From assembly GCA_029098225.1 (NCBI GenBank), contig JAQXNX010000014.1, positions 124,001 through 188,000 on the forward strand: DNA of 64,000 bases. Direction: 5' to 3'. Positions 34,989 through 59,337 of the stretch are shown piece after piece. Positions within the stretch are counted from its first letter, which is position 1. Each line of letters begins with the position of its first letter. The notes under the pieces were generated by a model. That model ran no database searches. It worked only from the letters and a program-made list of their open reading frames with translations, and was not told the DNA's origin. Source of the DNA: Spirochaetales bacterium. GTDB taxonomy: Bacteria; Spirochaetota; Spirochaetia; Treponematales; Treponemataceae. Made by a program: the position numbers and the translations under genes.

Positions 34989-35025
34989 TATATGTAATAA
35001 TTCGGCAGGTATAAAAATCTGCGCT

Positions 35026-35070
35026 GCACGTTAATGCGTGCTTACCGAGTTTTCGCTATGCGAAAACTCG
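35026..35070 (-). repeat. Two-hairpin palindromic element (HP1-GTAA-HP2), copy 1, just after groEL
   Basis: Minus: CGAGTTTTCGC-ata-GCGAAAACTCG GTAA GCACG-cattaa-CGTGC. Confidence 0.75.
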
Positions 35071-35076
35071 CTTGTG

Positions 35077-36786
<1,710 letters not shown>

Positions 36787-42103: not shown

Positions 42104-45064
42104 CTATTTGATTCTGTAAGTTTCCGGTGCTCCCAGATAAGACTTTGGCATAGGCTTGTTTGCTTCGTGAATCACGATTTTTTCAAGCACTATATTTGGA
42201 GTTACCGGGCTCAGTTTTACAGAGTTCAAGCCTGCATGGCAGTCTGCATAAACAGTTGCAATGCGGATATTATTCGGAATATCTTCTCCCCAAGGGAACT
42301 GATTATCACCAACTGCAAACTTTTCAGGATCAACTGCATCCTTCAAAAGTCTCTGACCGTTTATTTCTGCTATAAACTGAAGTTTATTATCTTTATAAGC
42401 CGGATTTGAAGGATTGATGTAGAAATCAAAAGCCATAACTCCGCCGGTCTTTTCTACAAAATCTTCAGACAAAGCAAATGCATACTCAACAAAAGGAGCG
42501 TCCTTAGCATCAGGAGCAAAAGTTCTGATTGTATCAGAAGCCTTTACAGCACCCAGAGTTTTTCCATATCCTTCAAGCAAATCAAAACCGCTCGAACGCA
42601 CAAAATGAGGAGCTTCCATACTGATATAGTTTGTTGTCTGAACAAAGGTTCCGGCCGGGAAGTTAGTATCTACAGAAGCAGCATCCACATGAACCTTAAC
42701 GAGAATGCGGGCTCCGTGACCATCGTTGCCTTCAATTGTGATTATATCACTTTTGTCACTTTCTTTTGCAAGCTTTTCACGGTCAATTGTAAGAAGAATT
42801 GTGTCAATATTAGCAAGCTTATCACCAAGGCCTTCTTCATCCTTTATGATTTTGCCGTTAAGCCAGCGCTTTGAATCATCCTTGTCATACTTTCCAAGAG
42901 TTACTGTATATTCACAGCCAGGTTCATTGCAGTTTGCAAGCTTTATGCGGGCTTCATTGCAATCAGGATTTTTGAAAGCGTCAAGATAAAGGTCGCGTAT
43001 AGTCCAGTCCTGACCGGTGGTTGTAAAGTCTGCACCATCAATCCAGAAAACATTACGCTTTTTGCGGGTAGGTTCAACATAAGCATAAACCGGATATGAG
43101 TTAGCAGCTTCACACCAGTTATTAAAGCCAAAGTGCTCAGACCAGGCCATTCCAAAGAAGCGGCCACCACCTACCTTATCACATTCATCAACAAGCTCTT
43201 TATCCGCCTTTACACACTCGCGAACCTTGTCCGCATACACATTAGCGACAAGGGCGTTGTGACTTGCAAACCAGCGGTTCTTTCCACTGTACAGCTGCAT
43301 AAGTTCAACATTCATTGTTCCCACAACAGGAAGATAAACCTGGCTGAAGAAGCCAGCCTCCTGCTCTGCCGGAACAAGCGCACGAAGAGCCTTTGTGCGC
43401 TCAATCAAAGCCTTTGCATGGCTGATAATATAATCAGCTTCACCAAAGTTTACCGGATGGAAGGTGTCCGGCTTAAGGGCTTCTGTTCGGCACATACTTG
43501 TGATTTTATTTGATTCATAGACAATATCAGAAAGCTCTTTTACCTGCTCAGCAGTAAAATATGGGAAAGCAGATGCAAACCACTGGTCACAATAAGCCTT
43601 AGTATCAGAATTATATTTTTCATAATCGTAAGCAAGATTAAGGAAGTAAGAAAGCGGGAACTCGTTTGTAAGAATATCTCCGACATTTACAATCCAGAGG
43701 TCGCGGATTCCAAACTCGTAGGCAGCAGACATCTGTTCACGGGCCTTTGGAAGATAATTGGTATTGAGCCACTCGTAGCTGTAAGGCCATCCGTGGTAAT
43801 CAAAATGGTAATACATACCGTAGCCGCCCTTGTGAGAGCGCATGTGTTCAGTTGGAACAGTACGAAGGTTTCCGTGGTTATCGTCACAGAGCATGAGGGT
43901 TACGCCCTCAAGCTCAGGATCATCCATAAGACCCTTTGTATGCTTATCGCCGTAGAAGTATGGCTCAACCTCTTTGTATAGGGCAAGCATACGAGGAACT
44001 TTATCGAGATCCTGATTTACATTTTCACGGATAAGACGGTTCTGAGTTTTAAGAACGTCGCGCAAAAGGTTTATGTTGTCGGCCAGAGTAGCGTTCTGCA
44101 TGATGGCTGTATCAGCTTCGCCGCGCATACCAACAGTGATTACATTTTCAAACTTGCCGTTACGTTTTAAGCCGTCTTCCCAGAACTTTGTAATTCCCTC
44201 GCGGTTTTTCCAGAAGTTCCAGGCATCACCGTAAATAGAACCAGGGCCGCGCACATAGCGGTATTCCTCTCCGTTACGGCAACATGGCTCATGGTGGCTG
44301 GCTCCCATAACTACGCCAAGCTCGTCAGCAAGTTCTGCATTTGCAAGGCCAGGGCCGTCCAGACTGAACTGAGCAGACCACATTGCAGGCCAGAGATAGT
44401 TTCCCTTGAGGCGGAGAAGGAGCTCAAAAACGTGCTCGTACATTTTAGCATTAAAGCCGCCAAAATTGTGGGTAGTAAAGTTGCCGTAAGCAGGCCATTC
44501 ATCGTTGATAAAGAAACCACGGAAACGTACAGAAGGCTCTTTAGTTACTGTTACGCCTTCTTCGAGTTCTACAGTGTCGCGCTTTGCCGGCAAAACTCCG
44601 CACCAGTCAACGAGAGGAGAAACTCCCATAAGTTCAGAAAGATGGAAAAGACCGTAAATTGTACCGCGCTTGTCGCTTCCGATTATGATGATTTTGTCTG
44701 AGCGGACAGCAAAAATATAGCACTCGCGTTTACCCCTGATTTTAGAAACATCTGCTGTCAGACCATTATCTGAAGCAAGCTTTTCTGCAAGAGGCGCCTG
44801 AGATATAGTGGCAAAGTAGACGGTGTTTTGTGGCGAGTTTGCGCCAGCAAACTCGGTAAGGTCGCTCTGCGACCGACTTTCGACAGGCTCAACCACCGCA
44901 CTCATAGCAGGTTTCTTACCAGTCACCCGCTCCACATCAAGACATACTTTATCTGCAATTTTCTTTACACCAGAAAACTCAGCTTCATCACAAAAAAATT
45001 CATTTTTCCCATCAATTTTGAACATAAGATTTTTCCTTACTATTGGTCTCGCATTAATGCGCAA
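42104..45064 (-). CDS. Glycoside hydrolase family 115-like (alpha-glucuronidase)
   Basis: GFFINDEWPAYGNFTTHNFGGFNAKMYEHVFELLLRLKGNYLWPAMWSAQF; GASHHEPCCRNGEEY. Confidence 0.85.
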   Translation of the reverse strand: MRINARPIVRKNLMFKIDGKNEFFCDEAEFSGVKKIADKVCLDVERVTGKKPAMSAVVEPVESRSQSDLTEFAGANSPQNTVYFATISQAPLAEKLASDNGLTADVSKIRGKRECYIFAVRSDKIIIIGSDKRGTIYGLFHLSELMGVSPLVDWCGVLPAKRDTVELEEGVTVTKEPSVRFRGFFINDEWPAYGNFTTHNFGGFNAKMYEHVFELLLRLKGNYLWPAMWSAQFSLDGPGLANAELADELGVVMGASHHEPCCRNGEEYRYVRGPGSIYGDAWNFWKNREGITKFWEDGLKRNGKFENVITVGMRGEADTAIMQNATLADNINLLRDVLKTQNRLIRENVNQDLDKVPRMLALYKEVEPYFYGDKHTKGLMDDPELEGVTLMLCDDNHGNLRTVPTEHMRSHKGGYGMYYHFDYHGWPYSYEWLNTNYLPKAREQMSAAYEFGIRDLWIVNVGDILTNEFPLSYFLNLAYDYEKYNSDTKAYCDQWFASAFPYFTAEQVKELSDIVYESNKITSMCRTEALKPDTFHPVNFGEADYIISHAKALIERTKALRALVPAEQEAGFFSQVYLPVVGTMNVELMQLYSGKNRWFASHNALVANVYADKVRECVKADKELVDECDKVGGGRFFGMAWSEHFGFNNWCEAANSYPVYAYVEPTRKKRNVFWIDGADFTTTGQDWTIRDLYLDAFKNPDCNEARIKLANCNEPGCEYTVTLGKYDKDDSKRWLNGKIIKDEEGLGDKLANIDTILLTIDREKLAKESDKSDIITIEGNDGHGARILVKVHVDAASVDTNFPAGTFVQTTNYISMEAPHFVRSSGFDLLEGYGKTLGAVKASDTIRTFAPDAKDAPFVEYAFALSEDFVEKTGGVMAFDFYINPSNPAYKDNKLQFIAEINGQRLLKDAVDPEKFAVGDNQFPWGEDIPNNIRIATVYADCHAGLNSVKLSPVTPNIVLEKIVIHEANKPMPKSYLGAPETYRIK
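44834..44874 (+). repeat. Two-hairpin palindromic element (HP1-GTAA-HP2), copy 2, inside the GH115 ORF
   Basis: CGAGTTTGC-gcca-GCAAACTCG GTAA GGTCGC-tct-GCGACC, then CGACTTTCGACAGGCTCAACC. Confidence 0.75.
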
Positions 45065-45248: not shown

Positions 45249-46709
45249 ATGGTACCAGTATTAATTAAAGATTTACTGTCTTCTAAGCCAGATGGGCAGA
45301 AGGTTACAGTATGTGGTTGGGTGCGCACTGTCCGCGACTCAAAGGGTCTTGTTTTTATTCAGGTGAACGATGGAAGCTGCTTTGCAAATATCCAGCTCAC
45401 CTTTGACCGCAATAATCCTTCTAATAATGCAAATGTAAATGAAATCGAAGCTGAACTCAAAAAGCTCAACACTGGAGCAAGTCTCCGCGCTGAAGGTCTT
45501 CTTATTGAATCTCCTGCAAGCGGTCAGGCTGTAGAAGTAACTCTCGAAAGCCTCAAGTGTCTTGGCGAATCAAATCCGGATGAATATCCTTTGCAGAAAA
45601 ACAAGATGTCTATGGAATATCTGCGCGACGTTGCACACCTTCGTGCCCGCACTAACACTTTTGGTGCAGTTTACCGTGTTCGTAACCAGATGGCTTTTGC
45701 AGTACACAGCTTCTTCCAGGAGCGTGGCTTCCAGTATATTAATGCGCCGGAAATCACCTGCAGCGACTGTGAAGGTGCCGGCGAGATGTTCCAGGTAACA
45801 ACCCTCAGCATGGAAAAGATTGCTGAGATGGCTGTAAAAGCCGGAAACGGCGGTATGAAGCCGGAAGACGCTTACAAGATTGTAGACTATAAAAAGGACT
45901 TCTTTGGAAAGAAGGCCAGCCTCACCGTTAGTGGTCAGCTGGAAGCAGAAACTCTCGCTACAGCCTTGAGCCGTGTTTACACCTTCGGCCCTACTTTCCG
46001 TGCAGAAAACTCTAACACTCCACGCCACCTCGCTGAGTTCTGGATGATTGAACCTGAAATGGCTTTCTTCGACCTGGACGACGATATGGACATTCAGGAA
46101 GACTTTGTAAAATATCTTTTGAACTGGGCTTTAACAAAGTGCCGCAGTGACCTCGAGTTCTTTGACAAGAGAATCCAGCCAGGACTTATCGAAAGTCTTG
46201 AAAAGGTTGCAAAGGCTAAGTTCACAAGAATCAGCTATACTCAGGCAATTGAAGACCTTGAAAAGGCAGCTGCAAACGGCGCTAAGTTTGAATTCAAGCC
46301 TTACTGGGGCTGCGACATTGCAACTGAGCACGAGCGCTATCTTACAGAAAAGATTTACAACGGTCCGGTTATGGTTTACAACTATCCAAAGGAAATCAAG
46401 TCTTTCTATATGAAGCAGAATGACGACGGCAAGACTGTAAAGGCCGTAGACGTTCTTGTTCCTGGAATCGGCGAGCTTATCGGCGGTTCTGAACGCGAAG
46501 AAAACTACGACAAGCTTCTTGCTGCCTGCAAAGAGCGCAACATGGATATGTCAAACTACGAATGGTATCTCGACCTTCGCCGCTTTGGTACAGTTCCACA
46601 CTCAGGCTTCGGCTTAGGCTTTGAACGCCTCATGCGCTACGTAACAGGTATGGACAATATAAGGGATGTTATTCCTTATCCTAGAGCTCCTAAGCTGGCG
46701 GATTTTTAA
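45249..46709 (+). CDS. asnS: Asparaginyl-tRNA synthetase
   Basis: VCGWVRTVRDSKGLVFIQVNDGS; GSEREENYDKL; FGLGFERLMRYVTGMDNIRDVIPYPRAPKLADF; SD GGAGG before ATG 45249. Confidence 0.97.
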   Translation: MVPVLIKDLLSSKPDGQKVTVCGWVRTVRDSKGLVFIQVNDGSCFANIQLTFDRNNPSNNANVNEIEAELKKLNTGASLRAEGLLIESPASGQAVEVTLESLKCLGESNPDEYPLQKNKMSMEYLRDVAHLRARTNTFGAVYRVRNQMAFAVHSFFQERGFQYINAPEITCSDCEGAGEMFQVTTLSMEKIAEMAVKAGNGGMKPEDAYKIVDYKKDFFGKKASLTVSGQLEAETLATALSRVYTFGPTFRAENSNTPRHLAEFWMIEPEMAFFDLDDDMDIQEDFVKYLLNWALTKCRSDLEFFDKRIQPGLIESLEKVAKAKFTRISYTQAIEDLEKAAANGAKFEFKPYWGCDIATEHERYLTEKIYNGPVMVYNYPKEIKSFYMKQNDDGKTVKAVDVLVPGIGELIGGSEREENYDKLLAACKERNMDMSNYEWYLDLRRFGTVPHSGFGLGFERLMRYVTGMDNIRDVIPYPRAPKLADF

Positions 46710-46713
46710 TATG

Positions 46714-46753
46714 CAAGTTTCCGATAGGAAACTTGGTAAGCACGCTTGCGTGC
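46714..46753 (+). repeat. Two-hairpin palindromic element (HP1-GTAA-HP2), copy 3, between duplicated asnS 3' ends
   Basis: CAAGTTTCC-gata-GGAAACTTG GTAA GCACGC-tt-GCGTGC. Confidence 0.75.
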
Positions 46754-46758
46754 GACTT

Positions 46759-46797
46759 ATCCCTTACCCACGCGCTCCAAAACTGGCAGACTTCTAA
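46759..46797 (+). pseudogene. Second copy of the asnS 3' end (IPYPRAPKLADF*)
   Basis: ATCCCTTACCCACGCGCTCCAAAACTGGCAGACTTCTAA encodes the same 12 residues and stop as 46671-46709 with only synonymous differences. Confidence 0.85.
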
Positions 46798-46901
46798 GCT
46801 GCAGGGGCGTTACGGGGGCGAGCCCCCGTTAGAAGGGGTAGCGGAAAACGCCGCAGGCGGTTGAAGCGAGGGGAAGACTTGCCCCTCCTTCTATAATAAA
46901 T

Positions 46902-59249: not shown

Positions 59250-59337
59250 GAAAATAAAATTGAAGCATAGTAAAGAACAAATTTCAACAGCCGATGGACA
59301 AAAAAAAGAGTCTCCTTATTTACAGACTGATTCATTT
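59250..59337. repeat. Direct repeat copy 1 (~88 bp)
   Basis: GAAAATAAAATTGAAGCATAGTAAAGAA...ACAGCCGATGGACAAAAAAAAGAGTCTCCTTATTTACAGACTGATTCATTT. Confidence 0.9.

Follow-up and report, generated by a model that had tools for sequence, protein, structure and literature searches.

Tiny cassettes of a substitute gene end and a double-hairpin element as the probable origin of a duplicated asnS 3′ end in Treponema

Why is the last stretch of a functional asnS gene written a second time, in different codons, a short distance behind its stop codon? This question is raised by the window, that is, the whole 64-kb stretch of DNA analysed here (G000:C14:124001-188000), which belongs to a 3.05-Mb genome with Treponema bryantii NK4A124 (G059) among its close relatives. 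We consider it likely that what is seen at asnS belongs to a group of tiny, non-autonomous mobile cassettes of Treponema and one neighbouring genus, which enter conserved genes, restore them and strand the old end.

Structure of the asnS end

The asnS gene of the ORF list (45249-46709, plus strand) encodes an asparaginyl-tRNA synthetase of 486 aa with the Pfam domains tRNA-synt_2 and tRNA_anti-codon, and orthologues are present in 59 of 59 relatives. According to the earlier note, the tail of this gene recurs 49 nt farther on, with a two-hairpin element in the gap, and the sequences and positions were found to be as it described: the first copy occupies 46671-46709 and the second 46759-46797. 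The ORF terminates in ATTCCTTATCCTAGAGCTCCTAAGCTGGCGGATTTTTAA and the distal copy reads ATCCCTTACCCACGCGCTCCAAAACTGGCAGACTTCTAA, both coding for IPYPRAPKLADF and a stop codon; the distal copy holds these same 12 residues and stop in a different frame and is presumably untranslated. The claim that all codon differences are synonymous proved correct, but they affect nine of the 13 codons, not about ten. Chance is excluded as the origin of this duplication.

The insertion point can be placed between G46668 and position 46669, the preceding base being G. It is followed on the plus strand by the substitute end (46669-46712), which is cassette-borne and consists of the recoded (V)IPYPRAPKLADF, the stop codon and 3 nt more. 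Next comes the double-hairpin element (DHE; 46713-46756, plus strand), about 44 nt long, which scores 65 bits with our covariance model R2. Its stem 1 is CAAGTTTCC/GGAAACTTG, its stem 2 is GCACGC/GCGTGC and its terminus is GCGAC; folded as single-strand DNA, it reaches −13.8 kcal/mol (z −5.1). The stranded native end (46757-46797, plus strand) follows at once as TT, IPYPRAPKLADF and a stop codon, and probably lies outside translation. Adjoining it is a dispersed repeat (46804-46900, plus strand) that is unrelated to the DHE and has 23 other matches in the genome. This repeat is palindromic and about 97 nt long; in relatives, DHEs often sit within its family, between ..TTAAAATCCCC.. and ..AACGCCCC.

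Origin of the two copies

A degenerate pattern of the asnS tail was searched for in 200 genomes of the genus and the flanks of the matches were read. At least two tail copies occur in G000, G216, G140, G173, G076, G007, G065 and G170, and a partly decayed arrangement is found in G032, while the remaining genomes among the matches listed carry a single tail. The same duplication thus exists in eight further genomes, and the assembly error that the earlier note had allowed for is contradicted: most of the genomes are drafts, but nine independently assembled ones share the structure, and the chance that it is an artefact is negligible.

The comparison of tails also indicates the direction of events. 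One result is that T. bryantii NK4A124 has a single tail with which the stranded one of G000 agrees completely (39/39); the agreement with G015 is 38/39, and that between the stranded tail of G173 and the tail of G024 is 37/39. Another is that the translated tail of G000 matches these relatives without a second copy at only 29-30 of 39 positions, while it matches the tails of other element-bearing species at 36-38 of 39. Since the distal copy is the relatives' tail and the translated copy is that of the element-bearing species, the functional end came from outside, and the direction of events proposed in the note, with the distal copy as the original end, is supported by these alignments.

These data bear on the idea that a DHE was inserted in place with a long target-site duplication whose copies diverged later. 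In asnS, however, it is the untranslated copy that is unchanged (39/39 against the relative), and the translated copy is off at nine codons; the untranslated copies moreover keep the protein sequence, and pyrG behaves alike. Such duplication is contradicted at asnS, pyrG and tkt, where the stranded copies match relatives. In its favour, near-identical repeats of 25 nt stand on both sides of the noncoding copy L151; the coding cases L213 and L182 share post-stop nucleotides between copies; and recent, identical 91-bp tandem units exist at L180. For individual noncoding DHE copies this origin is possible, but as the general explanation we regard it as improbable. Within the units L182 and L213, the copies differ synonymously in most codons and yet have nearly the same post-stop nucleotides, a contrast not readily accounted for by species divergence alone.

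The note had further likened the event to an integration that repairs the target gene's 3′ end, and had suggested a test for integrase elements at asnS. A phage or integrative-element remnant with a tyrosine integrase aimed at the asnS 3′ end would have well-known precedents: phage 21 and e14 at icd, like other integrases, rebuild the 3′ terminus of a protein-coding gene on integration, leaving a synonymously diverged replacement end and a displaced old end. Those elements are, however, large, encode an integrase and use one fixed target, while the DHE has many targets and no integrase. The spacer between the asnS tails is always short and is nearly identical in five species (TATGCAAGTTTCCGnnAGGAAACTTGGTAAGCACGCTTGCGTGCGACTT); the inserts measure about 14-64 nt, and all tail pairs among the matches listed lie within about 105 nt. 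Neither an integrase gene nor an element body lies between the copies in the asnS pairs, and no endonuclease ORF was found in these inserts. In addition, the same unit of about 90 bp is intact in several species, and one and the same hairpin is found at numerous different genes, with zero matches in phages, plasmids and viral contigs, by which a carrier of these kinds is ruled out. A remnant of this type is therefore very improbable, and the agent supported in place of a classical integrase element is a small double-hairpin element family that acts at numerous genes.

The double-hairpin element family

The hosts of the DHE are rumen and gut Treponema. With R2, which models about 45 nt, 17 matches were obtained in the G000 genome and about 75 across 14 of 16 genomes of the genus; a pattern for the second stem alone matched in 38 genomes, mostly once or twice in each, and its reversed control gave zero matches. 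Among 96 genomes of the order, the DHE occurs in 6 of 15 in the genus, 1 of 11 in the rest of the family and 0 of 70 outside the family. The single match in the sister genus also splits a gene end, that of ppdK.

The two consecutive hairpins are conserved, as in Allomyces-type elements. Compensatory changes on both sides were found for 13 of the 15 pairs among 95 distinct copies, and 91% of the cells are paired against a mean of 79% after shuffling, with none of 500 shuffles reaching the observed values. The Rfam models gave nothing near the gathering score, and a known RNA family is ruled out on this ground. A REPIN/RAYT system was likewise rejected, as the G000 genome (about 95% complete) has no match to the Y1 transposase TnpA_REP (PF01797); a transposase encoded in the missing 5% could have escaped. 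With regard to miniature inverted-repeat elements (MITEs), the DHE has two separate hairpins, neither terminal inverted repeats nor a parent transposon were found, and a 25-nt target duplication was seen at the noncoding copy L151 only. Nor did we find an autonomous larger version or a dedicated enzyme.

Occurrence at other genes and polarity

The order of intact gene with substitute end, DHE and stranded old end was also found at asnB, groL, carB, tkt, fba, ppdK, ilvD, purH, aspS, pgk, queA, gpmI, hsdS and the genes of PEP carboxykinase and tagaturonate reductase, and in 5′-end versions at pyrG and an aldo-keto reductase gene. In asnB of G076, for example, a DHE stands at the gene end and a second asnB tail directly behind it. 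The names of the tagaturonate reductase gene, carB, gpmI, tkt, fba, purH, ilvD, aspS, ppdK and asnB are supported by NCBIfam; the other targets, such as groL, pyrG, pgk and queA, are what we take them to be from reading their sequences.

Three features were seen among the DHE copies. One is an asymmetry: of the 116 copies read together with their flanks, 56 have a long ORF that stops no more than 20 nt away on the 5′ (GCGAG) side, and 6 have one on the GAC side, in a set of loci that was partly picked via the asnS and stem-2 patterns and in which copies at one gene across species are non-independent. Another emerges when the tail peptides of these 56 copies are compared with what lies behind the GAC terminus: the similarity exceeds the 99% point of a null of 2954 mismatched pairings in 32 of them and its 99.9% point in 30. 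About 24 of the 56 have no convincing stranded end, so that some DHEs may simply sit behind genes, or be old. The last is a G directly in front of the insertion point, seen in 28 of 33 rows. Of the other five, one is gpmI of G010, and four are arrays or displaced copies that were anchored wrongly; the short fba and groL arrays are not counted against the rule. A blind search for duplicated tails covered 464 kb, made up of the complete window plus a further 400 kb from two genomes; its only convincing cases were asnS (twice) and asnB, all three with a DHE between the copies.

Whichever way transcription runs, the DHE always turns its 5′ side towards the intact gene, and the old end borders on its ...GAC terminus. 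In pyrG of G000, G140 and G122, the DHE lies at the gene start in the orientation opposite to the gene and the order is the stranded start (M-K-IFVTGG), the DHE, a ribosome site and the new start MSKFIFVTGG leading into the gene. The aldo-keto reductase gene of G000, G011 and G073 has a similar 5′ arrangement, with the DHE in frame. As the polarity is the same at 5′ and 3′ gene ends, the process would work on DNA; a copying of mRNA is excluded, and copies derived from mRNA or terminators are ruled out. The G rule is seen at 3′ ends, while the corresponding base in pyrG is A, so it may not hold at 5′ ends.

Arrays of two or three units exist at fba, groL, ppdK, hsdS and queA. At the 3′ end of hsdS (L155/L162, G000:C22:539-661), three successive tails occur with two DHEs, the second of which overlaps the middle stop codon.

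Sharing of the cassette among genomes

The foreign character of the substitute ends is not confined to asnS. Differences between gene-end copies are mostly synonymous, the untranslated copies keep the protein sequence, and the old ends resemble close relatives that have no DHE. The recoded pyrG start does not differ between G000, G140 and G122, and the stranded start of G140 agrees at 29/29 positions with the single one that G015 and G059 have. In tkt of G061, the stranded end is like that of the relative G015 and the translated end like that of G000. The tkt gene of G000 itself (G000:C20:22561-22602) carries the G061-type recoded tail, and no DHE or second tail was detected there; this tail is possibly of the donor type or an excision scar.

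The substitute end and the DHE are shared together. Between G000 and G140, identity at asnS is 0.80 and 0.88 upstream, 41/42 and 44/44 in the cassette, 0.82 in the old end and 0.53 beyond it; at pyrG it is 0.83 and 0.75 in the gene, 46/47 and 48/49 (98%) in the cassette, 0.81 in the old end and 0.60 beyond. The asnS substitute end has 37-41 of 42 nt in common with G140, G076 and G173, whose upstream gene bodies are 76-80% identical, and the G000-G076 pair repeats the pattern of a near-identical cassette and dissimilar flanks. The asnS identity of G000 and G073 is distorted by an indel and was left out. Being common to species with unlike flanks, the substitute end and DHE behave as a mobile cassette of about 90 bp. 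In one fba pair, the DHEs are identical and the ends different, which indicates that hairpin and end are exchangeable.

Such sharing could also arise if rare events were spread by ordinary homologous recombination through natural transformation or transduction, with the DHE as a passive hairpin. Gene end, DHE and stranded end form a block whose two arms are both homologous to the gene of relatives, so recombination can transfer it complete, with the recipient's own distal end retained. No extra enzyme is needed, and the identical junction in the nine asnS genomes is accounted for, as are tracts that exceed the cassette (about 19 nt farther upstream are common to asnS of G000, G216, G140 and G061) and the hybrid single asnS tails of G061, G207 and G004. 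The right arm is, however, just 10-60 nt long and often 70-80% identical, and the insertion point is also the edge of the cassette in pyrG and in the asnS pair of G000 and G076. Recombination could have contributed to the spread of the cassette. Less easily explained by it are the first events, at 16 or more genes that have no relation to one another, the exactness of the GAC junction and the G in front of the insertion point, and as the whole explanation we hold it to be rather unlikely.

Proposed mechanism and known systems

In the mechanism that we favour, each cassette would consist of a replacement for the gene end, spelled as in another species and typically 18-57 nt long, and a DHE of about 45 nt that begins 1-20 nt past the stop codon. 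It would enter a conserved gene near its end, right after a G. The reading frame would continue into the substitute end, with the DHE next and the old end stranded directly behind ...GAC; as the frame runs on, the insertion would be harmless to the gene. What the data show directly is the layout and polarity of the cassettes, their presence at many genes, the foreign source of the substitute ends and their sharing by species with unlike flanks. Movement probably takes place at the DNA level: one end would be joined where the hairpin terminates, and homology to the target gene would fix the position. A nuclease or recombinase provided in trans, or a break repair that copies donor DNA up to the hairpin, may be the agent; we infer an enzyme acting in trans and a precise cassette edge. 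Our more specific and tentative proposal is a homology-guided form of bacterial DNA mobility, in which a putative Treponema enzyme joins the GAC end after a G and inserts the cassette of about 90 bp with a substitute end of the same gene, so that selfish DNA invades essential genes harmlessly. The single hybrid tails further suggest that cassettes are lost by recombination between the two end copies, although as possible excision products those of asnS in G004, G061 and G207 are suggestive only.

The closest known parallel is the foreign C-termini carried by mobile ORFs in fungal mtDNA, where genes such as Allomyces atp6 and Glomus atp6, atp9, cox2 and nad3 hold a foreign C-terminus together with a mobile endonuclease ORF, a displaced native end and synonymous differences (PMC3630166). 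In both systems the foreign end is in frame, the insert lies behind it, and the native end is displaced downstream, with mostly synonymous differences and a native copy equal to that of a relative. The fungal inserts are of about 0.4-1 kb and encode a homing endonuclease, whereas the Treponema insert is about 45 nt, has no coding capacity, is bacterial and is found at many chromosomal housekeeping genes, 5′ ends included. Double-hairpin elements that are mobile also occur in the mtDNA of Allomyces (Paquin et al. 2000, cited in PMC2800124); these and related repetitive hairpin elements resemble the DHE in being tiny, made of two hairpins and free of ORFs, with evidence of mobility between related genomes. 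The likeness is structural; no report was found of such elements carrying substitute gene ends with a fixed polarity. The Treponema elements unite the two fungal mtDNA features, foreign gene end and double hairpin, without any ORF.

Bacterial MITEs, REP/REPIN sequences and Rickettsia palindromic elements are also short, palindromic, non-coding repeats that in some cases lie in genes. A possible difference is that no terminal inverted repeats or transposase were found for the DHE. To our knowledge, gene-end substitution is a feature of none of these families, and no bacterial report of the arrangement was found in the literature covered, which included few subscription journals.

If the proposal is correct, bacterial selfish DNA would invade the most conserved genes and pay with a spare gene end of its own, a trick known from fungal mitochondria but here performed without an encoded protein. 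Unexpected synonymous patches at gene ends would be explained, the last codons of core genes could differ in history from the remainder of the gene, and the cassettes would be natural rescue cassettes akin to those in synthetic gene drives. The annotated set of insertion events would serve for finding the enzyme and the target rule.

Other copies of the element

The window contains three DHE copies: that of asnS and two more. One (35023-35071, minus strand) stands directly after the stop codon of groL (35077-36702, minus strand); a native tail copy, present at groL of G122 and G065, is not recognisable there. The other (44833-44877, plus strand) lies in a glycoside hydrolase family 115 gene (42104-45064, minus strand) with no duplicated end. 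Together with an adjoining short repeat it forms part of the reading frame close to the N-terminus and adds about 20 residues, a behaviour also of Rickettsia palindromic elements. At 59328, an exact repeat coding for KRVSLFTD occurs in a very short ORF, the copies being 186 nt apart without a hairpin element. Among other DHE copies, L133, L123, L135 and L179 are located between two inverted REP-like palindromes (..CAATGAC[element]TCATT..), and at L144 and L159 DHEs are nested within the stem-1 loop of another DHE.
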